From: Clusia tigrina
Taxonomy: Eukaryota > Arthropoda > Insecta > Diptera > Clusiidae
Direction: 5' to 3'
Assembly (NCBI GenBank): GCA_920105625.2
Contig: OV050030.1
Location: 70,779,611 to 70,843,610 of the forward strand
Length of the DNA stretch: 64,000 nt
Each line of letters begins with the position of its first letter. Position 1 is the stretch's first letter. The notes beneath the pieces are model-generated. The model saw only the letters and a list, made by a program, of their open reading frames with translations. It made no database searches and had not been told where the DNA came from. A program made the position numbers and the translations under genes. Shown one piece after another: positions 21,927 through 44,177 of this stretch.

Positions 21927-22091
21927 GTGAGTAAGTCGATAGTCGTCAATTCTGTGAATATGAAGATTATTTTTGTAACGAATTTATTGACAAGACAAGT
22001 TACAACAATAGTTGCAATTGCGTATGTGTGGTTATGCCACCGTAATAATTTTTCAGAAGAAGAAGAAGAATTATTGAAACATTTTTTTGTC

Positions 22092-22139
22092 AGATCTTAT
22101 AGCTATTTCGGACACGTCACTTGTCCTCATCAGAGATCT
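22092..22139 (-). ncRNA. Hammerhead ribozyme, complete motif (U monomer)
   Basis: Core and stems intact; flanked by TTTTTTTGTC instead of TTTTTTTGGC, just outside stem I. Confidence 0.85.
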
Positions 22140-23368
22140 TTCAGTGTAAGGCAATTTTCCCCCAAGCATTTTTTATTATGTCTCAGAAATCAACAGCACA
22201 CCAATTATGAACCCTCCCAGGAATCGAAACTGGACCTACAGCTGTTGTAATCTGTCCATCCAGACAACACGGCTAACTGCAGGTGGTGAACTGACTGATC
22301 AAATTCTGTCCCTGTACTGTCTCATTCCACCACACTCTAATCAACTCTGTCTCATTATTACCCCTCTTTTATTCCGTTAGGTCTCTCTCTCTGTTTTTTG
22401 TTACATTTCAGTGGTATCATAGTACATTGCTTTTGTTAATAGCTGGCTAATTAAGCCTGATCACACTAACCTTCTAGGATACATTCTATAAAGTTTACAA
22501 TTTCTTGTGAAGATTCGTCAGTAGACATAGATTTCACCTTTTTTTACCGTATTCATTCTGTAAATGTGAGTAAGTCGATAGTCGTCATTTCTGTGAATAT
22601 GAAGATTATTTTTGTAACGAATTTATTGACAAGACTAGTTACAACAGTAGTTGCAATTGCATATGTGTGGTTATGCCACCGTAATAATTTTTCAGAAGAA
22701 GAAGAAGAATTATTGAAACATTTTTTTGGCTGTTCTTATAGCTATTTCGGACACGCCACTTGTCCTCATCAGAGATCTTTCAATGTAAGGCAATTTTCCC
22801 CCAAGCATTTTTTATTATGTCTCAGAAATCAACAGCACACCAATTATGAATCCTCTCAGGAATCGAACCTGGACCTACAGCTGTTGTAATCTGTCCATCC
22901 TGACAACGCGGCTAACTGCAGGTGGTGAACTGACTGATCAAATTCTGTCCCTGTACTGTCTCATTCCACCACACTCTAATCAACTCTGTCTCATTATTAC
23001 CCCTCTTTTATTCCGTTAGGTCTCTCTCTCTGTTTTTTGTTACATTTCAGTGGTATCATAGTACATTGCTTTTGCTAATGGCTGGCTAATTAAGCCTGAT
23101 CACACTAACCTTCTAGGATACATTCAATAAAGTTTACAATTTCTTGTGAAGATTCGTCAGTAGACATAGATGTCACCTTTTTTACCGTATTCATTCTGTA
23201 AATGTGATCAAGTCGATAGTCGTCATTTCTGTGAATATAAAGATTATTTTTGTAACGAATTTATTGACAAGACAAGTTACAACAGTAGTTGCAATTGCGT
23301 ATGTGTGGTTATGCCACCGTAATAATTTTTCAGAAGAAGAAGAAGAATTATTGAAACATTTTTTTGGC

Positions 23369-23416
23369 AGATCTTATAGCTATTTCGGACACGTCACTTG
23401 TCCTCATCAGAGATCT
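23369..23416 (-). ncRNA. Hammerhead ribozyme, complete motif (D monomer)
   Basis: Core, stem II and 6-bp stem I intact; D copy of the 4-mer unit. Confidence 0.86.
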
Positions 23417-24609
23417 TTCACTGTAAGGCAATTTTCCCCCAAGCATTTTTTATTATGTCTCAGAAATCAACAGAACACCAATTATGAACCCTCCCAAGAA
23501 TCGAAACTGGACCTACAGCTGTTGTAATCTGTCCATCCAGACAACACGGCTAACTGCAGGTGGTGAACTGACTGATCAAATTCTGTCCCTGTACTGTCTC
23601 ATTCCACCACACTCTAATCAACTCTGTCTCATTATTACCCCTCTTTTATTCCGTTAGGTCTCTCTCTCTGTTTTTTGTTACATTTCAGTGGTATCATAGT
23701 ACATTGCTTTTGATAATGGCTGGCTAATTAAGCCTGATCACACTAACATTTTAGGATACATTCTATAAAGTTTCCAATTTCTTGTGAAGATTCGTCAGTA
23801 GACATAGATGTCACCTTTTTTACCGTATTCATTCTGTAAATGTGAGTAAGTCGATAGTCGTCAATTGACAAGACAAGTTACAACAGAAGTTGCAATTGCG
23901 TATGTGTGGTTATGCCACCGTAATAATTTTTCAGACGAAGAAGAAGAATTATTGAAACATTTTTTTGGCAGATCTTATAGCTATTTCGGACACGCCACTT
24001 GTCCTCATCCAAGATCTTTCAATGTAAGGCAATTTTTCCCCAAGCATTTTTTATTATGTCTCAGAAATCAACAGAACACCAATTAGGAACCCTCCCAAGA
24101 ATCGAAACTGGACCTACAGCTGTTGTAATCTGTCCATCCAGACAACTAGGCTAACTGCAGGTGGTGAACTGACTGATCAAATTCTGTGCCTGTACTGTCA
24201 CATTCCACCACACTCTAATCAACTCTGTCTCATTATTACCCCTCTTTTATTCCGTTAGGTCGCTCTCTCTCTGTTTTTTGTTACATTTCAGTGGTATCAT
24301 AGTACATTGCTTTTGTTAATGGCTGGCTAATTAAGCCTGATCACACTAACCTTCTAGGATACATTCTATAAAGTTTACAATTTCTTGTGAAGATTCGTCA
24401 GTAGACATAGATGTCACCTTTTTTACCGTATTCATTCTGTAAATGTGAGTAAGTCGATAGTCGTCAATTCTGTGAATATGAAGATTATTTTTGTAACGAA
24501 TTTATTGACAAGACAAGTTACAACAATAGTTGCAATTGCGTATGTGTTGTTATGCCACCGTAATAATTTTTCAGAAGAAGAAGAAGAATTATTGAAACAT
24601 TTTTTTGTC

Positions 24610-24657
24610 AGATCTTATAGCTATTTCGGACACGTCACTTGTCCTCATCAGAGATCT
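24610..24657 (-). ncRNA. Hammerhead ribozyme, complete motif (U monomer)
   Basis: Same as the motif at 22092, one 2,518-bp unit later. Confidence 0.85.
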
Positions 24658-26489
24658 TTCAGTGTAAGGCAATTTTCCCCCAAGCATTTTTTATTATGTC
24701 TCAGAAATCAACAGCACACCAATTATGAACCCTCCCAGGAATCGAAACTGGACCTACAGCTGTTGTAATCTGTCCATCCAGACAACACGGCTAACTGCAG
24801 GTGGTGAACTGACTGATCAAATTCTGTCCCTGTACTGTCTCATTCCACCACACTCTAATCAACTCTGTCTCATTATTACCCCTCTTTTATTCCGTTAGGT
24901 CTCTCTCTCTCTGTTTTGTGTTACATTTCAGTGGTATCATAGTACATTGCTTTTGTTAATGGCTGGCTAATTAAGCCTGATCACACTAACCTTCTAGGAT
25001 ATATTCTATAAAGTTTACAATTTCTTGTGAAGATTCGTCAGTAGACATAGATGTCACCTTTTTTACCGTATTCATTCTGTAAATGTGAGTAAGTCGATAG
25101 TCGTCATTTCTGTGAATATGAAGATTATTTTTGTAACGAATTTATTGACAAGACAAGTTACAACAGTAGTTGCAATTGCGTATGTGTGGTTATGCCACTG
25201 TAATAATTTTTCAGAAGAAGAAGAAGAATTATTGAAACATTTTTTTGGCAGATCTTATAGCTATTTCGGACACGCCACTTGTCCTCATCCAAGATCTTTC
25301 AATGTAAGGCAATTTTTCCCCAAGCATTTTTTATTATGTCTCAGAAATCAACAGAACACCAATTAGGAACCCTCCCAAGAATCGAAACTGGACCTACAGC
25401 TGTTGTAATCTGTCCATCCAGACAACTAGGCTAACTGCAGGTGGTGAACTGACTGATCAAATTCTGTGCCTGTACTGTCACATTCCACCACACTCTAATC
25501 AACTCTGTCTCATTATTACCCTTCTTTTGTTCTGTTAGGTCTCTCTCTCTGTTTTTTGTTACATTTCAGTGGTATCATAGTACATTGCTTTTGTTAATGG
25601 TTGGCTAATTAAGCCTGATCACACTAACCTTCTAGGATACATTCTATAAAGTTTACAATTTCTTGTGAAGATTCGTCAGTAGACATAGATGTCACCTTTT
25701 TTACCGTATTCATTCTGTAAATGTGAGTAAGTCGATAGTCGTCAATTGACAAGACAAGTTACAACAGAAGTTGCAATTGCGTATGTGTGGTTATGCCACC
25801 GTAATAATTTTTCAGACGAAGAAGAAGAATTATTGAAACATTTTTTTGGCAGATCTTATAGCTATTTCGGACACGCCACTTGTCCTCATCCAAGATCTTT
25901 CAATGTAAGGCAATTTTTCCCCAAGCATTTTTTATTATGTCTCAGAAATCAACAGAACACCAATTAGGAACCCTCCCAAGAATCGAAACTGGACCTACAG
26001 CTGTTGTAATCTGTCCATCCAGACAACTAGGCTAACTGCAGGTGGTGAACTGACTGATCAAATTCTGTGCCTGTACTGTCACATTCCACCACACTCTAAT
26101 CAACTCTGTCTCATTATTACCCCCTTTTGTTCCGTTAGGTCTCTCTCTCTCTGTTTTTTGTTACATTTCAGTGGTATCATAGCACATTGCTTTTGTTAAT
26201 GGCTGGCTAATTAAGCCTGATCACACTAACCTTCTAGGATACATTCTATAAAGTTTACAATTTCTTGTGAAGATTCGTCAGTAGACATAGATGTCACCTT
26301 TTTTACCGTATTCATTCTGTAAATGTGAGTAAGTCGATAGTCGTCAATTCTGTGAATATGAAGATTATTTTTGTAACGAATTTATTGACAAGACAAGTTA
26401 CAACAGTAGTTGCAATTGCATATGTGTGGTTATGCCACCGTAATAATTTTTCAGAAGAAGAAGAAGAATTATTGAAACATTTTTTTGGC

Positions 26490-26537
26490 AGATCTTATAG
26501 CTATTTCGGACACGTCACTTGTCCTCATCAGAGATCT
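26490..26537 (-). ncRNA. Hammerhead ribozyme, complete motif (K monomer)
   Basis: Core and stems intact; the preceding T and following L copies are core-dead. Confidence 0.86.
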
Positions 26538-27766
26538 TTCACTGTAAGGCAATTTTCCCCCAAGCATTTTTTATTATGTCTCAGAAATCAACAGAACACC
26601 AATTATGAACCCTCCCAAGAATCGAAACTGGACCTACAGCTGTTGTAATCTGTCCATCCAGACAACTAGGCTAACTGCAGGTGGTGAACTGACTGATCAA
26701 ATTCTGTCCCTGTTCTGTCTCATTCCACCACACTCTAATCAACTCTGTCTCATTATTAACCTTCTTTTGTTCTGTTAGGTCTCTCTCTCTGTTTTTTGTT
26801 ACATTTCAGTGGTATCATAGTACATTGCTTTTGTTAATGGCTGGCTAATTAAGCCTGATCACACTAACCTTCTAGGATACATTCTATAAAGTTTACAATT
26901 TCTTGTGAAGATTCGTCAGTACACATAGATGTCACCTTTTTTTACCGAATTCATTCTGTAAATGTGAGTAAGTCGATAGTCGTCATTTCTGTGAATATGA
27001 AGATTATTTTTGTAACGAATTTATTGACAAGACTAGTTACAACAGTAGTTGCAATTGCGTATGTGTGGTTATGCGACCGTAATAATTTTTCAGAAGAGGA
27101 AGAAGAATTATTGAAACATTTTTTTGGCTGTTCTTATAGCTATTTCGGACACGCCACTTGTCCTCATCCAAGATCTTTCAATGTAAGGCAATTTTTCCCC
27201 AAGCATTTTTTATTATGTCTCAGAAATCAACAGAACACCAATTAGGAACCCTCCCAAGAATCGAAACTGGACCTACAGCTGTTGTAATCTGTCCATCCAG
27301 ACAACTAGGGTAACTGCAGGTGGTGAACTGACTGATCAAATTCTGTGCCTGTACTGTCACATTCCACCACACTCTAATCAACTCTGTCTCATTATTACCC
27401 TTCTTTTGTTCCGTTAGGTCTCTCTCTCTGTTTTTTGTTACATTTCAGTGGTATCATAGTACATTGCTTTTGTTAATGGTTGGCTAATTAAGCCTGATCA
27501 CACTAACCTTCTAGGATACATTCTATAAAGTTTACAATTTCTTGTGAAGATTCGTCAGTAGACATAGATGTCACATTTTTTACCGTATTCATTCTGTAAA
27601 TGTGAGTAAGTCGATAGTCGTCATTTCTGTGAATATGAAGATTATTTTTGTAACGAATTTATTGACAAGACAAGTTACAACAGTAGTTGCAATTGCGTAT
27701 GTGTGGTTATGCCACCGTAATAATTTTTCAGAAGAAGAAGAAGAATTATTGAAACATTTTTTTGGC

Positions 27767-27814
27767 AGATCTTATAGCTATTTCGGACACGTCACTTGTC
27801 CTCATCAGAGATCT
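27767..27814 (-). ncRNA. Hammerhead ribozyme, complete motif (M monomer)
   Basis: Core and stems intact; zone 4, first 5-mer. Confidence 0.86.
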
Positions 27815-29645
27815 TTCACTGTAAGGCAATTTTCCACCAAGCATTTTTTATTATGTCTCAGAAATCAACAGAACACCAATTATGAACCCTCCCAAGAATC
27901 GAAACTGGACCTACAGCTGTTGTAATCTGTCCATCCAGACAACTAGGCTAACTGCAGGTGGTGAACTGACTGATCAAATTCTGTCCCTGTACTGTCTCAT
28001 TCCACCACACTCTAATCAACTCTGTCTCATTATTACCCCCTTTTGTTCCGTTAGGTCTCTATCTCTCTGTTTTTTGTTACATTTCAGTGGTATCATAGCT
28101 CATTGCTTTTGTTAATGGCTGGCTAATTAAGCCTGATCACACTAACCTTCTAGGATACATTCTATAAAGTTTACAATTTCTTGTGAAGATTCGTCAGTAG
28201 ACATAGATGTCACCTTTTTTACCGTATTCATTCTGTAAATATGAGTAAGTCGATAGTCGTCATTTCTGTGAATATGAAGATTATTTTTGTAACGAATTTA
28301 TTGACAAGACAAGTTACAACAGTAGTTGCAATTGCGTATGTGTGGTTATGCCACTGTAATAATTTTTCAGAAGAAGAAGAAGAATTATTGAAACATTTTT
28401 TTGGCAGATTTTATAGCTATTTCGGACACGCCACTTGTCCTCATCCAAGATCTTTCAATGTAAGGCAATTTTTCCCCAAGCATTTTTTATTATGTCTCAG
28501 AAATCAACAGAACACCAATTAGGAACCCTCCCAAGAATCGAAACTGGACCTACAGCTGTTGTAATCTGTCCATCCAGACAACTAGGCTAACTGCAGGTGG
28601 TGAACTGACTGATCAAATTCTGTGCCTGTACTGTCACATTCCACCACACTCTAATCAACTCTGTCTCATTATTACCCTTCTTTTGTTCTGTTAGGTCTCT
28701 CTCTCTGTTTTTTGTTACATTTCAGTGGTATCATAGTACATTGCTTTTGTTAATGGTTGGCTAATTAAGCCTGATCACACTAACCTTCTAGGATACATTC
28801 TATAAAGTTTACAATTTCTTGTGAAGATTCGTCAGTAGACATAGATGTCACCTTTTTTACCGTATTCATTCTGTAAATGTGAGTAAGTCGATAGTCGTCA
28901 ATTGACAAGACAAGTTACAACAGAAGTTGCAATTGCGTATGTGTGGTTATGCCACCGTAATAATTTTTCAGACGAAGAAGAAGAATTATTGAAACATTTT
29001 TTTGGCAGATCTTATAGCTATTTCGGACACGCCACTTGTCCTCATCCAAGATCTTTCAATGTAAGGCAATTTTTCCCCAAGCATTTTTTATTATGTCTCA
29101 GAAATCAACAGAACACCAATTAGGAACCCTCCCAAGAATCGAAACTGGACCTACAGCTGTTGTAATCTGTCCATCCAGACAACTAGGCTAACTGCAGGTG
29201 GTGAACTGACTGATCAAATTCTGTGCCTGTACTGTCACATTCCACCACACTCTAATCAACTCTGTCTCATTATTACCCCCTTTTGTTCCGTTAGGTCTCT
29301 CTCTCTCTGTTTTTTGTTACATTTCAGTGGTATCATAGCACATTGCTTTTGTTAATGGCTGGCTAATTAAGCCTGATCACACTAACCTTCTAGGATACAT
29401 TCTATAAAGTTTACAATTTCTTGTGAAGATTCGTCAGTAGACATAGATGTCACCTTTTTTACCGTATTCATTCTGTAAATGTGAGTAAGTCGATAGTCGT
29501 CAATTCTGTGAATATGAAGATTATTTTTGTAACGAATTTATTGACAAGACAAGTTACAACAGTAGTTGCAATTGCATATGTGTGGTTATGCCACCGTAAT
29601 AATTTTTCAGAAGAAGAAGAAGAATTATTGAAACATTTTTTTGGC

Positions 29646-29693
29646 AGATCTTATAGCTATTTCGGACACGTCACTTGTCCTCATCAGAGATCT
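29646..29693 (-). ncRNA. Hammerhead ribozyme, complete motif (K monomer)
   Basis: Core and stems intact; zone 4, second 5-mer. Confidence 0.86.
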
Positions 29694-30922
29694 TTCACTG
29701 TAAGGCAATTTTCCCCCAAGCATTTTTTATTATGTCTCAGAAATCAACAGAACACCAATTATGAACCCTCCCAAGAATCGAAACTGGACCTACAGCTGTT
29801 GTAATCTGTCCATCCAGACAACTAGGCTAACTGCAGGTGGTGAACTGACTGATCAAATTCTGTCCCTGTTCTGTCTCATTCCACCACACTCTAATCAACT
29901 CTGTCTCATTATTAACCTTCTTTTGTTCTGTTAGGTCTCTCTCTCTGTTTTTTGTTACATTTCAGTGGTATCATAGTACATTGCTTTTGTTAATGGCTGG
30001 CTAATTAAGCCTGATCACACTAACCTTCTAGGATACATTCTATAAAGTTTACAATTTCTTGTGAAGATTCGTCAGTACACATAGATGTCACCTTTTTTTA
30101 CCGAATTCATTCTGTAAATGTGAGTAAGTCGATAGTCGTCATTTCTGTGAATATGAAGATTATTTTTGTAACGAATTTATTGACAAGACTAGTTACAACA
30201 GTAGTTGCAATTGCGTATGTGTGGTTATGCGACCGTAATAATTTTTCAGAAGAGGAAGAAGAATTATTGAAACATTTTTTTGGCTGTTCTTATAGCTATT
30301 TCGGACACGCCACTTGTCCTCATCCAAGATCTTTCAATGTAAGGCAATTTTTCCCCAAGCATTTTTTATTATGTCTCAGAAATCAACAGAACACCAATTA
30401 GGAACCCTCCCAAGAATCGAAACTGGACCTACAGCTGTTGTAATCTGTCCATCCAGACAACTAGGGTAACTGCAGGTGGTGAACTGACGGATCAAATTCT
30501 GTGCCTGTACTGTCACATTCCACCACACTCTAATCAACTCTGTCTCATTATTACCCTTCTTTTGTTCCGTTAGGTCTCTCTCTCTGTTTTTTGTTACATT
30601 TCAGTGGTATCATAGTACATTGCTTTTGTTAATGGTTGGCTAATTAAGCCTGATCACACTAACCTTCTAGGATACATTCTATAAAGTTTACAATTTCTTG
30701 TGAAGATTCGTCAGTAGACATAGATGTCACCTTTTTTACCGTATTCATTCTGTAAATGTGAGTAAGTCGATAGTCGTCATTTCTGTGAATATGAAGATTA
30801 TTTTTGTAACGAATTTATTGACAAGACAAGTTACAACAGTAGTTGCAATTGCGTATGTGTGGTTATGCCACCGTAATAATTTTTCAGAAGAAGAAGAAGA
30901 ATTATTGAAACATTTTTTTGGC

Positions 30923-30970
30923 AGATCTTATAGCTATTTCGGACACGTCACTTGTCCTCATCAGAGATCT
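30923..30970 (-). ncRNA. Hammerhead ribozyme, complete motif (M monomer)
   Basis: Core and stems intact; zone 4, second 5-mer. Confidence 0.86.
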
Positions 30971-32837
30971 TTCACTGTAAGGCAATTTTCCACCAAGCAT
31001 TTTTTATTATGTCTCAGAAATCAACAGAACACCAATTATGAACCCTCCCAAGAATCGAAACTGGACCTACAGCTGTTGTAATCTGTCCATCCAGACAACT
31101 AGGCTAACTGCAGGTGGTGAACTGACTGATCAAATTCTGTCCCTGTACTGTCTCATTCCACCACACTCTAATCAACTCTGTCTCATTATTACCCCCTTTT
31201 GTTCCGTTAGGTCTCTATCTCTCTGTTTTTTGTTACATTTCAGTGGTATCATAGCTCATTGCTTTTGTTAATGGCTGGCTAATTAAGCCTGATCACACTA
31301 ACCTTCTAGGATACATTCTATAAAGTTTACAATTTCTTGTGAAGATTCGTCAGTAGACATAGATGTCACCTTTTTTACCGTATTCATTCTGTAAATATGA
31401 GTAAGTCGATAGTCGTCAATTCTGTGAATATGAAGATTATTTTTGTCACGAATTTATTGACAAGACAAGTTACAACAGTAGTTGCAATTGCGTATGTGTG
31501 GTTATGCCACCGTAATAATTTTTCAGAAGAAGAAGAAGAATTATTGAAACATTTTTTTGGCTGTTCTTATAGCTATTTCGGACACGCCACTTGTCCTCAT
31601 CAGAGATCTTTCAATGTAAGGCAATTTTCCCCCAAGCATTTTTTATTATGTCTCAGAAATCAACAGCACACCAATTATGAACCCTCCCAGGAATCGAAAC
31701 TGGACCTACAGCTGTTGTAATCTGTCCATCCAGACAACACGGCTAACTGCAGGTGGTGAACTGACTGATCAAATTCTGTCCCTGTACTGTCTCATTCCAC
31801 CACACTCTAATCAACTCTGTCTCATTATTACCCCTCTTTTATTCCGTTAGGTCTCTCTCTCTGTTTTGTGTTACATTTCAGTGGTATCATAGTACATTGC
31901 TTTTGTTAATGGCTGGCTAATTAAGCCTGATCACACTAACCTTCTAGGATATATTCTATAAAGTTTACAATTTCTTGTGAAGATTCGTCAGTAGACATAG
32001 ATGTCACCTTTTTTACCGTATTCATTCTGTAAATGTGAGTAAGTCGATAGTCGTCATTTCTGTGAATATGAAGATTATTTTTGTAACGAATTTATTGACA
32101 AGACAAGTTACAACAGTAGTTGCAATTGCGTATGTGTGGTTATGCCACTGTAATAATTTTTCAGAAGAAGAAGAAGAATTATTGAAACATTTTTTTGGCA
32201 GATCTTATAGCTATTTCGGACACGCCACTTGTCCTCATCCAAGATCTTTCAATGTAAGGCAATTTTTCCCCAAGCATTTTTTATTATGTCTCAGAAATCA
32301 ACAGAACACCAATTAGGAACCCTCCCAAGAATCGAAACTGGACCTACAGCTGTTGTAATCTGTCCATCCAGACAACTAGGGTAACTGCAGGTGGTGAACT
32401 GACTGATCAAATTCTGTGCCTGTACTGTCACATTCCACCACACTCTAATCAACTCTGTCTCATTATTACCCTTCTTTTGTTCCGTTAGGTCTCTCTCTCT
32501 GTTTTTTGTTACATTTCAGTGGTATCATAGTACATTGCTTTTGTTAATGGTTGGCTAATTAAGCCTGATCACACTAACCTTCTAGGATACATTCTATAAA
32601 GTTTACAATTTCTTGTGAAGATTCGTCAGTAGACATAGATGTCACCTTTTTTACCGTATTCATTCTGTAAATGTGAGTAAGTCGATAGTCGTCATTTCTG
32701 TGAATATGAAGATTATTTTTGTAACGAATTTATTGACAAGACAAGTTACAACAGTAGTTGCAATTGCGTATGTGTGGTTATGCCACCGTAATAATTTTTC
32801 AGAAGAAGAAGAAGAATTATTGAAACATTTTTTTGGC

Positions 32838-32885
32838 AGATCTTATAGCTATTTCGGACACGTCACTTGTCCTCATCAGAGATCT
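32838..32885 (-). ncRNA. Hammerhead ribozyme, complete motif (type I), best example
   Basis: Reading the minus strand from 32885 down: stem I strand AGATCT (32885-32880); core CTGATGA (32879-32873); stem II GGACA (32872-32868), a seven-base loop, TGTCC (32860-32856); GAAA (32855-32852); stem III ATA, loop GC, TAT (32852-32845); cleavage nucleotide A at 32844; second stem I strand AGATCT (32843-32838). All invariant hammerhead core bases (CUGAUGA, GAAA, NUH triplet AUA) are present and stems I and II pair perfectly. Predicted cleavage is between 32844 and 32843 on the minus-strand RNA. Stem III is only 3 bp with a 2-nt loop, as in the newt Sat2 and retrozyme-like hammerheads that often act as dimers, so two neighbouring copies may cooperate. 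Known role of the family: self-cleavage of multimeric repeat transcripts. Activity here is inferred. Confidence 0.88.
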
Positions 32886-32954
32886 TTCACTGTAAGGCAA
32901 TTTTCCCCCAAGCATTTTTTATTATGTCTCAGAAATCAACAGCACACCAATTAT

Positions 32955-33028
32955 GAACCCTCCCAGGAATCGATCCTGGACCTACAGCTGTTGTAATCTG
33001 TCCATCCAGACAACTAGGCTAACTGCAG
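32955..33028 (-). promoter_or_regulatory. tRNA-related segment with both A- and B-box matches
   Basis: In monomer 32673 the minus strand reads TAGCCTAGTTG (33021-33011), an exact A-box match, then 35 nt later GATCGATTC (32975-32967), an exact B-box match, in a 5-bp hairpin CCAGG/CCTGG. It differs from other M copies at CAGGAATCGATCC. The complete hammerhead at 32838-32885 lies downstream on the same strand. It is the only monomer I found with both boxes and a full-strength ribozyme. Whether Pol III uses it is inference. Confidence 0.55.
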
Positions 33029-34753
33029 GTGGTGAACTGACTGATCAAATTCTGTCCCTGTACTGTCTCATTCCACCACACTCTAATCAACTCTGTCTCA
33101 TTATTACCCCCTTTTGTTCCGTTAGGTCTCTATCTCTCTGTTTTTTGTTACATTTCAGTGGTATCATAGCACATTGCTTTTGTTAATGGCTGGCTAATTA
33201 AGCCTGATCACACTAACCTTCTAGGATACATTCTATAAAGTTTACAATTTCTTGTGAAGATTCGTCAGTAGACATAGATGTCACCTTTTTTACCGTATTC
33301 ATTCTGTAAATATGAGTAAGTCGATAGTCGTCAATTCTGTGAATATGAAGATTATTTTTGTAACGAATTTATTGACAAGACAAGTTACAACAGTAGTTGC
33401 AATTGCGTATGTGTGGTTATGCCACCGTAATAATTTTTCAGAAGAAGAAGAAGAATTATTGAAACATTTTTTTGGCTGTTCTTATAGCTATTTCGGACAC
33501 GCCACTTGTCCTCATCAGAGATCTTTCAATGTAAGGCAATTTTCCCCCAAGCATTTTTTATTATGTCTCAGAAATCAACAGCACACCAATTATGAACCCT
33601 CCCAGGAATCGAAACTGGACCTACAGCTGTTGTAATCTGTCCATCCAGACAACACGGCTAACTGCAGGTGGTGAACTGACTGATCAAATTCTGTCCCTGT
33701 ACTGTCTCATTCCACCACACTCTAATCAACTCTGTCTCATTATTACCCCTCTTTTATTCCGTTAGGTCTCTCTCTCTGTTTTTTGTTACATTTCAGTGGT
33801 ATCATAGTACATTGCTTTTGTTAATGGCTGGCTAATTAAGCCTGATCACACTAACCTTCTAGGATATATTCTATAAAGTTTACAGTTTCTTGTGAAGATT
33901 CGTCAGTAGACATAGATGTCACCTTTTTTACCGTATTCATTCTGTAAATGTGAGTAAGTCGATAGTCGTCATTTCTGTGAATATGAAGATTATTTTTGTA
34001 ACGAATTTATTGACAAGACAAGTTACAACAGTAGTTGCAATTGCGTATGTGTGGTTATGCCACTGTAATAATTTTTCAGAAGAAGAAGAAGAATTATTGA
34101 AACATTTTTTTGGCAGATCTTATAGCTATTTCGGACACGCCACTTGTCCTCATCCAAGATCTTTCAATGTAAGGCAATTTTTCCCCAAGCATTTTTTATT
34201 ATGTCTCAGAAATCAACAGAACACCAATTAGGAACCCTCCCAAGAATCGAAACTGGACCTACAGCTGTTGTAATCTGTCCATCCAGACAACTAGGCTAAC
34301 TGCAGGTGGTGAACTGACTGATCAAATTCTGTGCCTGTACTGTCACATTCCACCACACTCTAATCAACTCTGTCTCATTATTACCCCCTTTTGTTCCGTT
34401 AGGTCTCTCTCTCTCTGTTTTTTGTTACATTTCAGTGGTATCATAGCACATTGCTTTTGTTAATGGCTGGCTAATTAAGCCTGATCACACTAACCTTCTA
34501 GGATACATTCTATAAAGTTTACAATTTCTTGTGAAGATTCGTCAGTAGACATAGATGTCACCTTTTTTACCGTATTCATTCTGTAAATGTGAGTAAGTCG
34601 ATAGTCGTCAATTCTGTGAATATGAAGATTATTTTTGTAACGAATTTATTGACAAGACAAGTTACAACAGTAGTTGCAATTGCATATGTGTGGTTATGCC
34701 ACCGTAATAATTTTTCAGAAGAAGAAGAAGAATTATTGAATCATTTTTTTGGC

Positions 34754-34801
34754 AGATCTTATAGCTATTTCGGACACGTCACTTGTCCTCATCAGAGATC
34801 T
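34754..34801 (-). ncRNA. Hammerhead ribozyme, complete motif (K monomer)
   Basis: Core and stems intact. The flank reads GAATCATTTTTTTGG instead of GAAACATTTTTTTGG, outside the motif. Confidence 0.86.
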
Positions 34802-36030
34802 TTCACTGTAAGGCAATTTTCCCCCAAGCATTTTTTATTATGTCTCAGAAATCAACAGAACACCAATTATGAACCCTCCCAAGAATCGAAACTGGACCTA
34901 CAGCTGTTGTAATCTGTCCATCCAGACAACTAGGCTAACTGCAGGTGGTGAACTGACTGATCAAATTCTGTCCCTGTTCTGTCTCATTCCACCACACTCT
35001 AATCAACTCTGTCTCATTATTAACCCTCTTTTGTTCCGTTAGGTCTCTCTCTCTGTTTTTTGTTACATTTCAGTGGTATCATAGTACATTGCTTTTGTTA
35101 ATGGCTGGCTAATTAAGCCTGATCACACTAACCTTCTAGGATACATTCTATAAAGTTTACAATTTCTTGTGAAGATTCGTCAGTACACATAGATGTCACC
35201 TTTTTTTACCGAATTCATTCTGTAAATGTGAGTAAGTCGATAGTCGTCATTTCTGTGAATATGAAGATTATTTTTGTAACGAATTTATTGACAAGACTAG
35301 TTACAACAGTAGTTGCAATTGCGTATGTGTGGTTATGCGACCGTAATAATTTTTCAGAAGAAGAAGAAGAATTATTGAAACATTTTTTTGGCTGTTCTTA
35401 TAGCTATTTCGGACACGCCACTTGTCCTCATCCAAGATCTTTCAATGTAAGGCAATTTTTCCCCAAGCATTTTTTATTATGTCTCAGAAATCAACAGAAC
35501 ACCAATTAGGAACCCTCCCAAGAATCGAAACTGGACCTACAGCTGTTGTAATCTGTCCATCCAGACAACTAGGGTAACTGCAGGTGGTGAACTGACTGAT
35601 CAAATTCTGTGCCTGTACTGTCACATTCCACCACACTCTAATCAACTCTGTCTCATTATTACCCTTCTTTTGTTCCGTTAGGTCTCTCTCTCTGTTTTTT
35701 GTTACATTTCAGTGGTATCATAGTACATTGCTTTTGTTAATGGTTGGCTAATTAAGCCTGATCACACTAACCTTCTAGGATACATTCTATAAAGTTTACA
35801 ATTTCTTGTGAAGATTCGTCAGTAGACATAGATGTCACCTTTTTTACCGTATTCATTCTGTAAATGTGAGTAAGTCGATAGTCGTCATTTCTGTGAATAT
35901 GAAGATTATTTTTGTAACGAATTTATTGACAAGACAAGTTACAACAGTAGTTGCAATTGCGTATGTGTGGTTATGCCACCGTAATAATTTTTCAGAAGAA
36001 GAAGAAGAATTATTGAAACATTTTTTTGGC

Positions 36031-36078
36031 AGATCTTATAGCTATTTCGGACACGTCACTTGTCCTCATCAGAGATCT
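36031..36078 (-). ncRNA. Hammerhead ribozyme, complete motif (M monomer)
   Basis: Core and stems intact; end of the zone 4 N-J/T-K-L-M unit. Confidence 0.86.
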
Positions 36079-36504
36079 TTCACTGTAAGGCAATTTTCCC
36101 CCAAGCATTTTTTATTATGTCTCAGAAATCAACAGAACACCAATTATGAACCCTCCCAAGAATCGAAACTGGACCTACAGCTGTTGTAATCTGTCCATCC
36201 AGACAACTAGGCTAACTGCAGGTGGTGAACTGACTGATCAAATTCTGTCCCTGTACTGTCTCATTCCACCACACTCTAATCAACTCTGTCTCATTATTAC
36301 CCCCTTTTGTTCCGTTAGGTCTCTATCTCTCTGTTTTTTGTTACATTTCAGTGGTATCATAGCACATTGCTTTTGTTAATGGCTGGCTAATTAAGCCTGA
36401 TCACACTAACCTTCTAGGATACATTCTATAAAGTTTACAATTTCTTGTGAAGATTCGTCAGTAGACATAGATGTCACCTTTTTTACCGTATTCATTCTGT
36501 AAAT

Positions 36505-37143
36505 ATGAGTAAGTCGATAGTCGTCAATTCTGTGAATATGAAGATTATTTTTGTCACGAATTTATTGACAAGACAAGTTACAACAGTAGTTGCAATTGCG
36601 TATGTGTGGTTATGCCACCGTAATAATTTTTCAGAAGAAGAAGAAGAATTATTGAAACATTTTTTTGGCAGATCTTATAGCTATTTCGGACACGTCACTT
36701 GTCCTCATCAGAGATCTTTCACTGTAAGGCAATTTTCCCCCAAGCATTTTTTATTATGTCTCAGAAATCAACAGAACACCAATTATGAACCCTCCCAAGA
36801 ATCGAAACTGGACCTACAGCTGTTGTAATCTGTCCATCCAGACAACTAGGCTAACTGCAGGTGGTGAACTGACTGATCAAATTCTGTCCCTGTTCTGTCT
36901 CATTCCACCACACTCTAATCAACTCTGTCTCATTATTAACCCTCTTTTGTTCCGTTAGGTCTCTCTCTCTGTTTTTTGTTACATTTCAGTGGTATCATAG
37001 TACATTGCTTTTGTTAATGGCTGGCTAATTAAGCCTGATCACACTAACCTTCTAGGATACATTCTATAAAGTTTACAATTTCTTGTGAAGATTCGTCAGT
37101 ACACATAGATGTCACCTTTTTTTACCGAATTCATTCTGTAAAT
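36505..37143. repeat. Zone 4/5 junction monomer (K-like)
   Basis: A single K-like copy with the ATGAGTAAG anchor and GTCACG of N, and the CACGTCAC, GTACACAT and ACCGAATT markers of K. It sits between zone 4 and the E-T-M trimers and looks like an N/K recombinant. Confidence 0.75.
36670..36717 (-). ncRNA. Hammerhead ribozyme, complete motif (K-like monomer)
   Basis: Core and stems intact. Two complete motifs occur in successive monomers here (36031 and 36670), so a transcript through both could yield an exact unit-length RNA. Confidence 0.86.
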
Positions 37144-38546
37144 GTGAGTAAGTCGATAGTCGTCATTTCTGTGAATATGAAGATTATTTTTGTAACGAAT
37201 TTATTGACAAGACTAGTTACAACAGTAGTTGCAATTGCGTATGTGTGGTTATGCGACCGTAATAATTTTTCAGAAGAAGAAGAAGAATTATTGAAACATT
37301 TTTTTGGCTGTTCTTATAGCTATTTCGGACACGCCACTTGTCCTCATCAGAGATCTTTCAATGTAAGGCAATTTTCCCCCAAGCATTTTTTATTATGTCT
37401 CAGAAATCAACAGCACACCAATTATGAACCCTCCCAGGAATCGAAACTGGACCTACAGCTGTTGTAATCTGTCCATCCAGACAACACGGCTAACTTCAGG
37501 TGGTGAACTGACTGATCAAATTCTGTCCCTGTACTGTCTCATTCCACCACACTCTAATCAACTCTGTCTCATTATTACCCCTCTTTTATTCCGTTAGGTC
37601 TCTCTCTCTGTTTTTTGTTACATTTCAGTGGTATCATAGTACATTGCTTTTGTTAATGGCTGGCTAATTAAGCCTGATCACACTAACCTTCTAGGATACA
37701 TTCTATAAAGTTTACAATTTCTTGTGAAGATTCGTCAGTAGACATAGATGTCACCTTTTTTACCGTATTCATTCTGTAAATGTGAGTAAGTCGATAGTCG
37801 TCAATTGACAAGACAAGTTACAACAGAAGTTGCAATTGCGTATGTGTGGTTATGACACCGTAATAATTTTTCAGACGAAGAAGAAGAATTATTGAAACAT
37901 TTTTTTTCAGATCTTATAGCTATTTCGGACACGCCACTTGTCCTCATCCAAGATCTTTCAATGTAAGGCAATTTTTCCCCAAGCATTTTTTATTATGTCT
38001 CAGAAATCAACAGAACACCAATTAGGAACCCTCCCAAGAATCGAAACTGGACCTACAGCTGTTGTAATCTGTCCATCCAGACAACTAGGCTAACTGCAGG
38101 TGGTGAACTGACTGATCAAATTCTGTGCCTGTACTGTCACATTCCACCACACTCTAATCAACTCTGTCTCATTATTACCCTTCTTTTGTTCTGTTAGGTC
38201 TCTCTCTCTGTTTTTTGTTACATTTCAGTGGTATCATAGTACATTGCTTTTGTTAATGGTTAGCTAATTAAGCCTGATCACACTAACCTTCTAGGATACA
38301 TTCTATAAAGTTTACAATTTCTTGTGAAGATTCGTCAGTAGACATAGATGTCACCTTTTTTACCGTATTCATTCTGTAAATGTGAGTAAGTCGATAGTCG
38401 TCATTTCTGTGAATATGAAGATTATTTTTGTAACGAATTTATTGACAAGACAAGTTACAACAGTAGTTGCAATTGCGTATGTGTGGTTATGCCACCGTAA
38501 TAATTTTTCAGAAGAAGAAGAAGAATTATTGAAACATTTTTTTGGC

Positions 38547-38594
38547 AGATCTTATAGCTATTTCGGACACGTCACTTGTAATCATCAGAGATCT
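38547..38594 (-). ncRNA. Hammerhead motif with broken stem II (M monomer)
   Basis: Core CUGAUGA, GAAA and the 6-bp stem I are intact, but CACTTGTAATCATC replaces CACTTGTCCTCATC. The first two stem II bases become UU opposite CC, removing both base pairs next to the core. Expected to be inactive or very weak. This is the only copy with the change. Confidence 0.8.
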
Positions 38595-39150
38595 TTCACT
38601 GTAAGGCAATTTTCCCCCAAGCATTTTTTATTATGTCTCAGAAATCAACAGAACACCAATTATGAACCCTCCCAAGAATCGAAACTGGACCTACAGCTGT
38701 TGTAATCTGTCCATCCAGACAACTAGGCTAACTGCAGGTGGTGAACTGACTGATCAAATTCTGTCCCTGTTCTGTCTCATTCCACCACACTCTAATCAAC
38801 TCTGTCTCATTATTAACCCTCTTTTGTTCCGTTAGGTCTCTCTCTCTGTTTTTTGTTACATTTCAGTGGTATCATAGTACATTGCTTTTGTTAATGGCTG
38901 GCTAATTAAGCCTGATCACACTAACCTTCTAGGATACATTCTATAAAGTTTACAATTTCTTGTGAAGATTCGTCAGTACACATAGATGTCACCTTTTTTA
39001 CCGAATTCATTCTGTAAATGTGAGTAAGTCGATAGTCGTCATTTCTGTGAATATGAAGATTATTTTTGTAACGAATTTATTGACAAGACTAGTTACAACA
39101 GTAGTTGCAATTGCGTATGTGTGGTTATGCGACCGTAATAATTTTTCAGA

Positions 39151-39168
39151 AGAAGAAGAAGAATTATT
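39151..39168 (+). repeat. GAA microsatellite tract (per monomer, example)
   Basis: A run of five GAA/AGA triplets, CAGAAGAAGAAGAAGAATT, recurs in each monomer. It is CAGACGAAG in T copies, GAAGAGGAAG in L copies 26964 and 30120, one triplet shorter in F copies (which moves a TAA into the open frame), and GAAAAAG in B copies. On the minus strand it is a TTC run just downstream of the ribozyme cleavage site. Confidence 0.8.
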
Positions 39169-39184
39169 GAAACATTTTTTTGGC

Positions 39185-39232
39185 TGTTCTTATAGCTATT
39201 TCGGACACGCCACTTGTCCTCATCAGAGATCT
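39185..39232 (-). ncRNA. Hammerhead motif, intact core but weak stem I (42 copies, example)
   Basis: Copies with GGCTGTTCTTATAG keep CUGAUGA, stem II, GAAA, stem III and the AUA triplet, but stem I is AGAACA opposite AGAUCU: three pairs next to the core, then mismatches with one C-G pair. Monomers: 482, 1120, 1757, 3034, 3672, 4310, 4947, 6224, 6862, 7501, 8140, 8778, 9416, 10052, 11329, 11967, 12606, 13663, 14941, 15579, 16217, 17493, 20047, 20686, 22566, 31397, 33312, 37144, 39020, 40897, 42774, 44653, 45292, 47847, 49728, 51007, 54803, 56082, 57319, 58559, 60434 and 63591; the motif is at start +165 to +212 in each. Activity is expected to be reduced unless distal stem I contacts or dimer pairing compensate. 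Confidence 0.75.
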
Positions 39233-39473
39233 TTCAATGTAAGGCAATTTTCCCCCAAGCATTTTTTATTATGTCTCAGAAATCAACAGCACACCAATTA
39301 TGAACCCTCCCAGGAATCGAAACTGGACCTACAGCTGTTGTAATCTGTCCATCCAGACAACACGGCTAACTGCAGGTGGTGAACTGACTGATCAAATTCT
39401 GTCCCTGTACTGTCTCATTCCACCACACTCTAATCAACTCTGTATCATTATTACCCCTCTTTTATTCCGTTAG

Positions 39474-39504
39474 GTCTCTCTCTCTGTTTTTTGTTACATT
39501 TCAG
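39474..39504 (+). other. CT/T tract ending in 3'-splice-site-like TTTCAG (per monomer)
   Basis: CTCTCTCTCTG, a run of six T, GTTACATTTCAG: a strong pyrimidine tract followed by CAG. The CT count varies by one or two repeats and the T run from six to nine, explaining most 1-4-bp length differences between monomers. It looks like an intron acceptor, but nothing shows that it is spliced. Confidence 0.4.
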
Positions 39505-39579
39505 TGGTATCATAGTACATTGCTTTTGTTAATGGCTGGCTAATTAAGCCTGATCACACTAACCTTCTAGGATACATTC

Positions 39580-39615
39580 TATAAAGTTTACAATTTCTTG
39601 TGAAGATTCGTCAGT
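39580..39615 (+). promoter_or_regulatory. TATAAAG plus TCAGT initiator-like pair (per monomer, example)
   Basis: TATAAAG (39580-39586) is followed by TCAGT (39611-39615), an arthropod-type initiator, with the A of TCAGT 33 nt from the first T of the box. The pair precedes the next anchor by about 45 bp and is kept in nearly every copy. A Pol II start here would make plus-strand RNA, antisense to the ribozyme. Spacing is slightly long and the match may be chance that was amplified. Confidence 0.25.
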
Positions 39616-39785
39616 AGACATAGATGTCACCTTTTTTACCGTATTCATTCTGTAAATGTGAGTAAGTCGATAGTCGTCAATTGACAAGACAAGTTACAAC
39701 AGAAGTTGCAATTGCGTATGTGTGGTTATGACACCGTAATAATTTTTCAGACGAAGAAGAAGAATTATTGAAACATTTTTTTGGC

Positions 39786-39833
39786 AGATCTTATAGCTAT
39801 TTCGGACACGCCACTTGTCCTCATCCAAGATCT
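39786..39833 (-). ncRNA. Hammerhead relic, core mutated to UGGAUGA (24 copies, example)
   Basis: CATCCAAG replaces CATCAGAG, with adjacent changes at 39826-39827, turning C3 and U4 of the core into U and G. Both bases are invariant in active hammerheads, so these copies should not cleave, although stem I (AGAUCU) and stem II still pair. Monomers: all fourteen T copies, J at 25085, 28241, 32035 and 33950, L-type at 26964, 30120, 35228, 45931 and 51646, and the E/T chimera at 62312. L copies also have the weak stem I. Confidence 0.85.
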
Positions 39834-40423
39834 TTCAATGTAAGGCAATTTTTCCCCAAGCATTTTTTATTATGTCTCAGAAATCAACAGAACACCAATT
39901 AGGAACCCTCCCAAGAATCGAAACTGGACCTACAGCTGTTGTAATCTGTCCATCCAGACAACTAGGCTAACTGCAGGTGGTGAACTGACTGATCAAATTC
40001 TGTGCCTGTACTGTCACATTCCACCACACTCTAATCAACTCTGTCTCATTATTACCCTTCTTTTGTTCTGTTAGGTCTCTCTCTCTGTTTTTTGTTACAT
40101 TTCAGTGGTATCATAGTACATTGCTTTTGTTAATGGTTGGCTAATTAAGCCTGATCACACTAACCTTCTAGGATACATTCTATAAAGTTTACAATTTCTT
40201 GTGAAGATTCGTCAGTAGACATAGATGTCACCTTTTTTACCGTATTCATTCTGTAAATGTGAGTAAGTCGATAGTCGTCATTTCTGTGAATATGAAGATT
40301 ATTTTTGTAACGAATTTATTGACAAGACAAGTTACAACAGTAGTTGCAATTGCGTATGTGTGGTTATGCCACCGTAATAATTTTTCAGAAGAAGAAGAAG
40401 AATTATTGAAACATTTTTTTGGC

Positions 40424-40471
40424 AGATCTTATAGCTATTTCGGACACGTCACTTGTCCTCATCAGAGATCT
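40424..40471 (-). ncRNA. Hammerhead ribozyme, complete motif (M monomer)
   Basis: Core and stems intact; E-T-M unit 2. Confidence 0.86.
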
Positions 40472-42300
40472 TTCACTGTAAGGCAATTTTCCCCCAAGCA
40501 TTTTTTATTATGTCTCAGAAATCAACAGAACACCAATTATGAACCCTCCCAAGAATCGAAACTGGACCTACAGCTGTTGTAATCTGTCCATCCAGACAAC
40601 TAGGCTAACTGTAGGTGGTGAACTGACTGATCAAATTCTGTCCCTGTTCTGTCTCATTCCACCACACTCTAATCAACTCTGTCTCATTATTAACCCTCTT
40701 TTGTTCCGTTAGGTCTCTCTCTCTGTTTTTTGTTACATTTCAGTGGTATCATAGTACATTGCTTTTGTTAATGGCTGGCTAATTAAGCCTGATCACACTA
40801 ACCTTCTAGGATACATTCTATAAAGTTTACAATTTCTTGTGAAGATTCGTCAGTACACATAGATGTCACCTTTTTTACCGAATTCATTCTGTAAATGTGA
40901 GTAAGTCGATAGTCGTCATTTCTGTGAATATGAAGATTATTTTTGTAACGAATTTATTGACAAGACTAGTTACAACAGTAGTTGCAATTGCGTATGTGTG
41001 GTTATGCGACCGTAATAATTTTTCAGAAGAAGAAGAAGAATTATTGAAACATTTTTTTGGCTGTTCTTATAGCTATTTCGGACACGCCACTTGTCCTCAT
41101 CAGAGATCTTTCAATGTAAGGCAATTTTCCCCCAAGCATTTTTTATTATGTCTCAGAAATCAACAGCACACCAATTATGAACCCTCCCAGGAATCGAAAC
41201 TGGACCTACAGCTGTTGTAATCTGTCCATCCAGACAACACGGCTAACTGCAGGTGGTGAACTGACTGATCAAATTCTGTCCCTGTACGGTCTCATTCCAC
41301 CACACTCTAATCAACTCTGTATCATTATTACCCCTCTTTTATTCCGTTAGGTCTCTCTCTCTGTTTTTTGTTACATTTCAGTGGTATCATAGTACATTGC
41401 TTTTGTTAATGGCTGGCTAATTAAGCCTGATCACACTAACCTTCTAGGATACATTCTATAAAGTTTACAATTTCTTGTGAAGATTCGTCAGTAGACATAG
41501 ATGTCACCTTTTTTACCGTATTCATTCTGTAAATGTGAGTAAGTCGATAGTCGTCAATTGACAAGACAAGTTACAACAGAAGTTGCAATTGCGTATGTGT
41601 GGTTATGACACCGTAATAATTTTTCAGACGAAGAAGAAGAATTATTGAAACATTTTTTTGGCAGATCTTATAGCTATTTCGGACACGCCACTTGTCCTCA
41701 TCCAAGATCTTTCAATGTAAGGCAATTTTTCCCCAAGCATTTTTTATTATGTCTCAGAAATCAACAGAACACCAATTAGGAACCCTCCCAAGAATCGAAA
41801 CTGGACCTACAGCTGTTGTAATCTGTCCATCCAGACAACTAGACTAACTGCAGGTGGTGAACTGACTGATCAAATTCTGTGCCTGTACTGTCACATTCCA
41901 CCACACTCTAATCAACTCTGTCTCATTATTACCTTTCTTTTGTTCTGTTAGGTCTCTCTCTCTGTTTTTTGTTACATTTCAGTGGTATCATAGTACATTG
42001 CTTTTGTTAATGGTTGGCTAATTAAGCCTGATCACACTAACCTTCTAGGATACATTCTATAAAGTTTACAATTTCTTGTGAAGATTCGTCAGTAGACATA
42101 GATGTCACCTTTTTTACCGTATTCATTCTGTAAATGTGAGTAAGTCGATAGTCGTCATTTCTGTGAATATGAAGATTATTTTTGTAACGAATTTATTGAC
42201 AAGACAAGTTACAACAGTAGTTGCAATTGCGTATGTGTGGTTATGCCACCGTAATAATTTTTCAGAAGAAGAAGAAGAATTATTGAAACATTTTTTTGGC

Positions 42301-42348
42301 AGATCTTATAGCTATTTCGGACACGTCACTTGTCCTCATCAGAGATCT
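42301..42348 (-). ncRNA. Hammerhead ribozyme, complete motif (M monomer)
   Basis: Core and stems intact; E-T-M unit 3. Confidence 0.86.
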
Positions 42349-44177
42349 TTCACTGTAAGGCAATTTTCCCCCAAGCATTTTTTATTATGTCTCAGAAATC
42401 AACAGAACACCAATTATGAACCCTCCCAAGAATCGAAACTGGACCTACAGCTGTTGTAATCTGTCCATCCAGACAACTAGGCTAACTGCAGGTGGTGAAC
42501 TGACTGATCAAATTCTGTCCCTGTTCTGTCTCATTCCACCACACTCTGATCAACTCTGTCTCATTATTAACCCTCTTTTGTTCCGTTACGTCTCTCTCTC
42601 TGTTTTTTGTTACATTTCAGTGGTATCATAGTACATTGCTTTTGTTAATGGCTGGCTAATTAAGCCTGATCACACTAACCTTCTAGGATACATTCTATAA
42701 AGTTTACAATTTCTTGTGAAGATTCGTCAGTACACATAGATGTCACCTTTTTTACCGAATTCATTCTGTAAATGTGAGTAAGTCGATAGTCGTCATTTCT
42801 GTGAATATGAAGATTATTTTTGTAACGAATTTATTGACAAGACTAGTTACAACAGTAGTTGCAACTGCGTATGTGTGGTTATGCGACCGTAATAATTTTT
42901 CAGAAGAAGAAGAAGAATTATTGAAACATTTTTTTGGCTGTTCTTATAGCTATTTCGGACACGCCACTTGTCCTCATCAGAGATCTTTCAATGTAAGGCA
43001 ATTTTCCCCCAAGCATTTTTTATTATGTCTCAGAAATCAACAGCACACCAATTATGAACCCTCCCAGGAATCGAAACTGGACCTACAGCTGTTGTAATCT
43101 GTCCATCCAGACAACACGGCTAACTGCAGGTGGTGAACTGACTGATCAAATTCTGTCCCTGTACTGTCTCATTCCACCACACTCTAATCAACTCTGTATC
43201 ATTATTACCCCTCTTTTATTCCGTTAGGTCTCTCTCTCTGTTTTTTGTTACATTTCAGTGGTATCATAGTACATTGCTTTTGTTAATGGCTGGCTAATTA
43301 AGCCTGATCACACTAACCTTCTAGGATACATTCTATAAAGTTTACAATTTCTTGTGAAGATTCGTCAGTAGACATAGATGTCACCTTTTTTACCGTATTC
43401 ATTCTGTAAATGTGAGTAAGTCGATAGTCGTCAATTGACAAGACAAGTTACAACAGAAGTTGCAATTGCGTATGTGTGGTTATGACACCGTAATAATTTT
43501 TCAGACGAAGAAGAAGAATTATTGAAACATTTTTTTGGCAGATCTTATAGCTATTTCGGACACGCCACTTGTCCTCATCCAAGATCTTTCAATGTAAGGC
43601 AATTTTTCCCCAAGCATTTTTTATTATGTCTCAGAAATCAACAGAACACCAATTAGGAACCCTCCCAAGAATCGAAACTGGACCTACAGCTGTTGTAATC
43701 TGTCCATCCAGACAACTAGGCTAACTGCAGGTGGTGAACTGACTGATCAAATTCTGTGCCTGTACTGTCACATTCCACCACACTCTAATCAACTCTGTCT
43801 CATTATTACCTTTCTTTTGTTCTGTTAGGTCTCTCTCTCTGTTTTTTGTTACATTTCAGTGGTATCATAGTACATTGCTTTTGTTAATGGTTGGCTAATT
43901 AAGCCTGATCACACTAACCTTCTAGGATACATTCTATAAAGTTTACAATTTCTTGTGAAGATTCGTCAGTAGACATAGATGTCACCTTTTTTACCGTATT
44001 CATTCTGTAAATGTGAGTAAGTCGATAGTCGTCATTTCTGTGAATATGAAGATTATTTTTGTAACGAATTTATTGACAAGACAAGTTACAACAGTAGTTG
44101 CAATTGCGTATGTGTGGTTATGCCACCGTAATAATTTTTCAGAAGAAGAAGAAGAATTATTGAAACATTTTTTTGGC

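Follow-up and report, generated by a model that had tools for sequence, protein, structure and literature searches.

The window, by which we mean the whole 64,000-nucleotide stretch analysed, belongs to the 429.8-Mb contig C1 (assembly size 1.21 Gb) and falls entirely within a tandem array that repeats a 638-nt unit in one orientation. The extent of the array was fixed by its edges, found in stretches L011 and L026, between which we read the window and 14 ten-kb stretches (L012–L025). Each of these 14 consists of 9.5–10 kb of the unit, 638 bp is the commonest spacing between window copies, and the pieces at the right edge are 90–97% identical to the unit consensus. The features of the copy under study, in window positions, are as follows.

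1..64000, minus strand: part of an array of about 803 kb, from about C1:70.409 to 71.212 Mb, in which the 638-nt unit is repeated in tandem in one orientation
32670..32705, minus strand: optional 36-nt "tail" between site 1 and site 2 (the latter ...CTTACTCACATT, at ~174 of the monomer)
32706..32717, minus strand: site 1, AATAATCTTCAT, monomer position 138–140 past the predicted cut; 10 of 20 dispersed copies end here
32838..32843, minus strand: stem I 3' strand, AGAUCU; 32843 is the first base 3' of the predicted cut
32844..32844, minus strand: H17 = A, predicted cleavage 3' of this base; altered in 1 of 319 copies
32845..32852, minus strand: stem III, AUAGCUAU, 3 bp plus a 2-nt loop when alone
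32853..32855, minus strand: GAA core (G12 A13 A14), identical in 319 of 319 copies
32856..32872, minus strand: stem II, GGACA/UGUCC (5 bp) with 7-nt loop AGUGACG, from sequence and folding
32873..32879, minus strand: CUGAUGA core (C3 to A9); C3 or U4 mutated in 27 of 101 window copies
32880..32885, minus strand: stem I 5' strand, AGAUCU, by direct reading
32967..32977, minus strand: B box, GGATCGATTCC here, belonging to a tRNA-like Pol III promoter
33010..33021, minus strand: A box, TAGCCTAGTTGT, its start 44 nt from that of the B box

Several variants of the unit occur in the array. A 600–601-nt monomer form lacking monomer positions 113–149 accounts for 14 window intervals, and the monomer types, as distinguished by core and stem I variants and by this shorter form, follow a partly regular three-unit order that resembles a loose higher-order repeat and spans about the first two thirds of the window in the minus-strand reading. 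A 419-bp short unit at window positions 13122–13947 was the sole tandem array in a TRF run with a period limit of 500. No minus-strand ORF of at least 50 codons overlaps the unit; a 107-codon open frame on the plus strand recurs in the units (32673–32996, 33312–33635) across the complement of the ribozyme and is probably there by chance. Left of the array, L011 encodes reverse transcriptase and integrase domains that we read as Ty3-type, and to its right lie Helitron-like N-terminal and PIF1 helicase domains, followed at ~90–96 kb by an RVT_1 frame and a fragment of a SET domain.

Read on the minus strand, positions 32838–32885 give AGATCT, CTGATGA, GGACA, a 7-nt loop, TGTCC, GAA, ATAGCTAT, A and AGATCT in this order. 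The earlier note had placed a hammerhead ribozyme on this strand and at these coordinates, and direct reading of the letters bears this out. The conserved core CUGANGA ... GAA ... U-H is present together with three helices and an open stem I, which is the layout of a type I hammerhead, with cleavage predicted between 32844 and 32843 of the minus strand. The stem III sequence AUAGCUAU is an 8-nt palindrome, and two copies of it could pair as an 8-bp helix. A coding reading of the ATG within CTGATGA, as in an element of the anole, was dropped; by eye, the consensus runs into a stop 19 codons on.

That the resemblance to a hammerhead should have arisen by chance is hardly credible. A descriptor asking for stems of at least 4/4/3 bp matched 31 minus-strand sites in the window and none on the plus strand, and it arose in only 7 of 721,097 dinucleotide-shuffled versions of one monomer, searched on one strand; moreover, tandem repeats and retroelements are the usual place of type I hammerheads in animals (PMC7229834, cited here, like PMC8969392, PMC8490949, PMC2837043, PMC3088659 and PMC3846280, for part of its text). 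Sliding the partner columns of the alignment leaves at most 43.3% of the cells paired instead of 97.5%, which also speaks against chance, although the tool warns that a structure read from the same sequences tends to give such a drop. What a chance origin has in its favour is the lack of covariation and the Rfam score. Among 17 distinct, near-identical rows there were 0 compensatory double changes, and the 97.5% of paired cells was equalled in 500 of 500 shuffles, so that pairing shows no excess over shuffles.

An Rfam scan of the window at the gathering cut-off gave no match, and neither the five matches in 1.4 kb scanned at E ≤ 10 nor the four in an edge stretch containing an intact copy included a hammerhead. 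The earlier note had named a covariance model as the check to be made, and there the motif falls short: on a 91-nt stretch Hammerhead_1 (RF00163) reached 12.5 bits against a cut-off of 34 (E=2), fourth by bits among six matches and ranked with other sub-threshold ones. We did not accept this score as a refutation, because stem III has only 3 bp and short or dimeric hammerhead forms have been described (PMC8490949, PMC3088659). A profile search of the whole genome with RF00163 had 0 matches, and its control was likewise positive in 0 of 14 genomes, so that the zero carries no information. Folding of monomer and dimer ruled out the hammerhead as the predicted minimum-energy RNA structure. The monomeric active fold, at −6.3 kcal/mol, lies 5.4 kcal/mol above the predicted minimum of −11.7 kcal/mol. 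The stem III duplex between two copies is worth −7.3 kcal/mol, and the dimeric hammerhead built through the palindromic stem III comes to −29.3 kcal/mol compared to an unconstrained minimum of −33.4 kcal/mol.

How many copies could still be active was assessed across the array. A recount agrees exactly with the earlier one, CTGATGA being found 74 times on the minus strand beside 101 copies of GAAATAGCTATA, the sequence on which our 101 window copies are anchored; the plus strand of the window contains neither (0 and 0). The accompanying view that a ribozyme sits in every full-length monomer is not confirmed as regards a working motif, since core and all stems are intact in only 31 of 102 window copies when all pairs are scored, and in 74 of 319 copies from the window and L011–L026, a set without the copies too near stretch ends. 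Among the anchored window copies, 32 of 101 combine the core with both AGATCT arms, although stem II is broken in one of them; in 42 the core is kept but the 3' side reads AGAACA, which reduces stem I from 6 to 3 contiguous pairs, and in 27 the core is mutated (23 TGGATGA, 4 TTGATGA). The 3' strand of stem I reads AGATCT in 54 of the 101 copies, AGAACA in 46 and AAATCT in one. C3 has mutated in 142 of the 319 array copies, U4 in 26. At the edges (L011 and L026), four of four sites retain the core and both AGATCT arms of stem I, though in one of them a pair of stem III is broken.

Purifying selection on the ribozyme was considered as evidence of function and rejected. In the alignment of window monomers (98 of 100 intervals, those outside 590–660 nt being dropped) entropy is higher in the ribozyme than in the rest of the unit, at 0.107 versus 0.069; rare variants are fewer in the ribozyme (8 of 4704 versus 167 of 57278 elsewhere), a deficit that is not significant (P 0.15). 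Copies chosen by their B box show no excess of conservation either, with 10 of 336 changed cells in the ribozyme versus 34 of 1758 in the flanks (P 0.22, seven copies; L054, which has no ribozyme, was dropped from the set, and L058 and L055 were left out for single flanks). The core is intact in all seven ribozyme-bearing copies among the eight chosen by B box. Judged from these comparisons, the ribozyme seems to be decaying in the array rather than visibly kept. Such decay would fit a plain satellite with a fossil hammerhead that never cleaves now, its dispersed copies being array fragments or segmental duplications. The 27 core-mutated copies, the 42 more with shortened stem I, the Rfam score under the cut-off, the absence of a conservation excess and an active fold that is not the predicted minimum all agree with this reading, and yet we consider it unlikely in view of the structure of the dispersed copies described below.

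Upstream of the hammerhead, by ~100 nt, the unit carries a tRNA-like promoter. The Pol III A and B boxes of tRNA-derived SINEs are both present and lie 32 nt apart, within the N30–35 given for such elements in PMC8969392; the A box TAGCCTAGTTG has two mismatches to TGGCNNAGTGG. At 638 nt, the unit is longer than the 80–500 nt stated there for tRNA-derived SINEs. The perfect B box GGTTCGATTCC occurs in three of three right-edge copies versus 17 of 101 window copies, so that copies at the right edge keep both core and perfect B box whereas those inside the array often do not. We take the intact state of both ribozyme and promoter to be the ancestral one, and the mutants to have arisen from it. 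An edge copy gave a weak match to a tRNA T-arm (13.8 bits, cut-off 29), and tRNA gene finding, by ARAGORN, returned no tRNA, its loosened settings yielding noise. Runs of at least four T number eight on the minus, ribozyme-bearing strand of the 64 kb versus 895 on the plus strand; the monomer consensus is free of T4 runs, as are 589 of 20,000 dinucleotide and 912 of 20,000 mononucleotide shuffles. As so few T4 runs stand on the ribozyme strand, Pol III could read through several units, which is only suggestive. Taken together, the A and B boxes and the few T4 runs lend indirect support to minus-strand transcription of the unit.

Beyond the array, the 638-nt unit is scattered through the genome on both strands. 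A 34-nt ribozyme pattern with up to three mismatches gave 827 forward and 4812 reverse genome matches, array copies included, compared to 0 and 0 for the reversed control, and its exact form including C3 and U4 gave 280 and 2129; a B-box pattern with up to two mismatches gave 526 and 3787 (control 0). In a search for relatives, exact matches to one pattern numbered 0 in viral and 0 in prokaryote contigs. The matches listed include 30 exact places on C1 before the array, 15 on each strand, isolated copies on either strand, pairs with spacings of 634 and 638 bp, and five copies grouped near C1:114.50 Mb. Among them are also small clusters (C1:114.50, 116.45 and 121.59 Mb), and a further one-orientation 638-bp array with perfect B boxes covers at least C1:133325087–133353877.

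Twenty dispersed loci (L031–L050) were read, all on contig C1 and together holding 21 of the 30 exact places among the matches listed before the array. Because they were picked by the ribozyme pattern, conservation of the pattern letters in them proves nothing; C3 and U4 were no part of that pattern, and 17 of 20 loci keep them intact (the exceptions being L041, L042 and L047), oftener than the array copies do, which argues against a mere fossil satellite. The direct copies are 82–96% identical to the unit, except for 100% in L033 over 69 nt only.

The ends of these copies carry most of our argument. Whereas the 5' starts of the direct copies fall at many different points, as expected of 5' truncation, the 3' ends of 16 of 20 loci fall at either of two sites that lie downstream of the ribozyme with 36 nt between them. 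Ten copies end at site 1 and six at or near site 2, five of the latter called by script at 169–176 and the sixth, L032, called at 198 but placed at ~174 by eye and counted under site 2; the remaining four end elsewhere. When look-alike loci are counted once (leaving out L039, L042 and L046, look-alikes of L038, L041 and L045, here and in the duplication counts), 13 of 17 end at the two sites. In 12 of 20 loci, or 11 of 17 with look-alikes counted once, the direct copy is joined head to head, at a distance of no more than 15 bases, to an inverted partial copy. In L031, L034 and L038/L039 the outer end of the inverted arm is site 2, within ~2 nt, and the direct copy ends at site 1; other inverted arms have their outer end elsewhere, and several inverted pieces are short (39–72 nt), that of L036 being 41 nt at 78% identity.

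The insertions are bounded by flanking duplications of 8–14 bp, which exceed the cross-pair control. Flanks sharing at least 8 identical bases were found in 7 of 13 loci versus 20 of 156 cross-pairs, and in 6 of 12 versus 19 of 132 without a TA-microsatellite locus (P 0.007); the test leaves out L033, L043, L044 and L048, which end elsewhere, and its windows extend 8 nt into the element, so that some string lengths contain element letters. In the 13 loci the AT content is 84% in the 3' flanks (30 nt past the insert) and 79% in the 5' flanks, compared to 62% in distant flanks. Recurrent 3' ends, inverted partners and flanking duplications are not expected from the random breakage of an array. 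The copies in L031, L041/L042, L043 and L044 cross the unit boundary with spans of 634–759 nt, from which we conclude that the template was a multimer or a circle, and as the sequence is continuous across the predicted cut in all 20 loci, the copied RNA was either uncut there or re-ligated.

An ordinary tRNA-derived, SINE-like element moved by a LINE could account for these data, carrying a hammerhead as Sm-alpha does and owing its two ends and inverted pieces to internal and twin priming. Sm-alpha has a Pol III promoter. The tRNA-like A and B boxes at normal spacing, the 5' truncation, the 8–14 bp duplications and the RVT_1 open frame ~90 kb from the array, taken as LINE-type, all suit such an origin, as does the failure to detect a Penelope enzyme in the genome. 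We nevertheless assign it a minor, if appreciable, chance, since no common poly-A or simple-repeat tail is visible at either 3' end in the 20 loci, the two ends lie 36 nt apart, twin priming does not predict the inverted pieces of L031, L034 and L038/L039 that start at site 2, and 638 nt is long for a SINE.

A closer parallel emerged when the aligned 3' ends of the dispersed copies were compared with published Penelope elements (PMC11167929, PMC3846280). In the anole element Poseidon, reverse transcription begins at two neighbouring internal positions, both downstream of the hammerhead; cutting and extension involve both strands of the target, AT-rich DNA being preferred, and the sequence between the two starts forms an optional tail of 30–40 bp that is called unique to Penelope elements (PMC11167929). 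The typical copy of Penelope in Adineta has an inverted pseudo-LTR, a 31-bp tail on one inverted arm and a 9-bp target duplication, and the pseudo-LTR sequences were enough to move a foreign gene in trans, as the cited part of PMC3846280 describes. The 638-nt unit likewise has its hammerhead upstream of two alternative 3' ends, an optional tail of 36 nt, an inverted terminal copy and short target-site duplications, and it shares partial tandems, AT-rich targets and 5' truncation. As in Adineta, the tail is confined to one inverted arm in L031, L034 and L038/L039, and the duplications of 8–14 bp compare with 9 and 10 bp there (PMC3846280, in part). It differs in its tRNA-like promoter, its short ribozyme stem III and the distance of the end sites from the cut, 138–174 nt versus the ~85–92 nt that follow from the anole numbers (PMC11167929).

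The unit also lacks the ORF of Penelope-like elements, with its telomerase-like reverse transcriptase and GIY-YIG endonuclease, and searches for this enzyme elsewhere in the assembly with GIY-YIG and reverse-transcriptase motif patterns detected none. GIY-YIG gave one match among 32 scored candidates; the Penelope reverse-transcriptase patterns had 1 and 0 exact matches in the genome and no excess at one mismatch (34 versus 58 in the reversed control). The enzyme may have been lost, be missing from the assembly or be too diverged for the searches used, or it may not have been of the Penelope type. In the absence of an ORF of at least 50 codons on the ribozyme strand and of a detected partner enzyme, we filed the unit as inserted like Penelope and not as a member of that group.

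Hammerhead satellites and retrozymes are already known (PMC7229834, PMC2837043, PMC3088659 and PMC8490949, each as far as cited here). The earlier note had compared the family with newt Sat2, Sm-alpha, pDo500 and retrozymes, and this is the right neighbourhood; what needs correction is the rank of the satellite, which seems to be an end state, the unit itself being a dispersed element with retroelement-like insertion structure. Like metazoan non-LTR retrozymes, described in PMC7229834 as tandem non-coding low-GC repeats with a type I hammerhead, the unit combines such a ribozyme with a GC content of ~37%, common to both, with target-site duplications of more than 4 bp and with dispersed single as well as tandem copies. 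It exceeds their size of ~150–450 bp (PMC7229834, in part) and differs in its tRNA-like promoter and Penelope-like insertion signature. The schistosome Sm-alpha and W-elements, likened here by description, are likewise SINE-like satellites with a type I hammerhead, Sm-alpha being 335 bp long (PMC8490949, in part). In the pDo500 satellite of Dolichopoda, too, each unit (463–505 bp) carries a single hammerhead, some of the copies are predicted to be active and a dimer is possible; its ribozyme is more conserved than the rest, which that of the 638-nt unit is not (PMC2837043, in part). The hammerheads of Aedes aegypti, again by description, are interspersed repeats with a palindromic stem III and loop III able to dimerise over a stem of 10 bp, compared to 8 bp here (PMC3088659, in part).

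Considering all of this, we think the unit is rather likely to be a non-autonomous, ribozyme-bearing retroelement of retrozyme or SINE-like character that was copied by Penelope-like machinery and later amplified into a satellite, its ribozyme cleavage being putative. Equipped with a promoter of the tRNA-like Pol III type and with a minimal hammerhead of type I, such an element would have its ribozyme strand transcribed by Pol III or by read-through. The RNA would then be cleaved, probably as a dimer via the palindromic stem III, and perhaps be ligated to circles. Transcripts of tandem copies, or circles derived from them, would be copied into AT-rich sites, with reverse transcription beginning on both target strands at either internal site ~138 or ~174 nt downstream of the cut; two-site reverse transcription is indicated by the end structure, and the responsible enzyme would presumably be of the Penelope type. 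Later amplification at the DNA level may have formed arrays, among them the present one with its ~0.8 Mb, in which the ribozyme would have become dispensable and would decay. The frequent core changes in the one-orientation array suggest that array growth is independent of the ribozyme.

Cervera and de la Pena have proposed that Penelope-like elements mobilise animal retrozymes, on the grounds that the two coexist and share both type I hammerheads and a tandem arrangement; the cited part of their paper holds no insertion-site proof (PMC7229834), and a dependence of retrozymes on Penelope elements is also suggested in PMC8969392, cited likewise in part. If our reading is true, the two ends 36 nt apart and the inverted arms, corresponding to the signature described for the anole (PMC11167929), would give direct structural evidence for this proposed, unproven mobilisation. 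No title or abstract opening in the literature searched described such a tail signature for hammerhead satellites or retrozymes, in a search that did not extend to supplements or to most papers behind subscription. The link between enzyme and element, if it holds, could be tested in vitro with the anole protein and RNA of the 638-nt unit. We put forward only tentatively, as something slightly less probable than its contrary, the fuller account that retrozyme copies bearing the Penelope-specific tail and inverted-copy scars turned into a near-megabase satellite after the enzyme had vanished from the genome. Within this one family, stages can be followed from the dispersed element to the decaying satellite, and growth of the array seems not to need the ribozyme.

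Three further observations were made on the way. In L044, two ribozyme copies lie head to head ~500 bp apart and could form a long hairpin. Three one-orientation ribozyme copies ~5.74 kb apart, at C1:66087821, 66093560 and 66099305, could belong to a longer composite element or a segmental duplication. Finally, COX1 has 67 matches in the genome, including contig 666, and several near-full-length ones in the large contigs C1–C3 probably represent many mitochondrial insertions.
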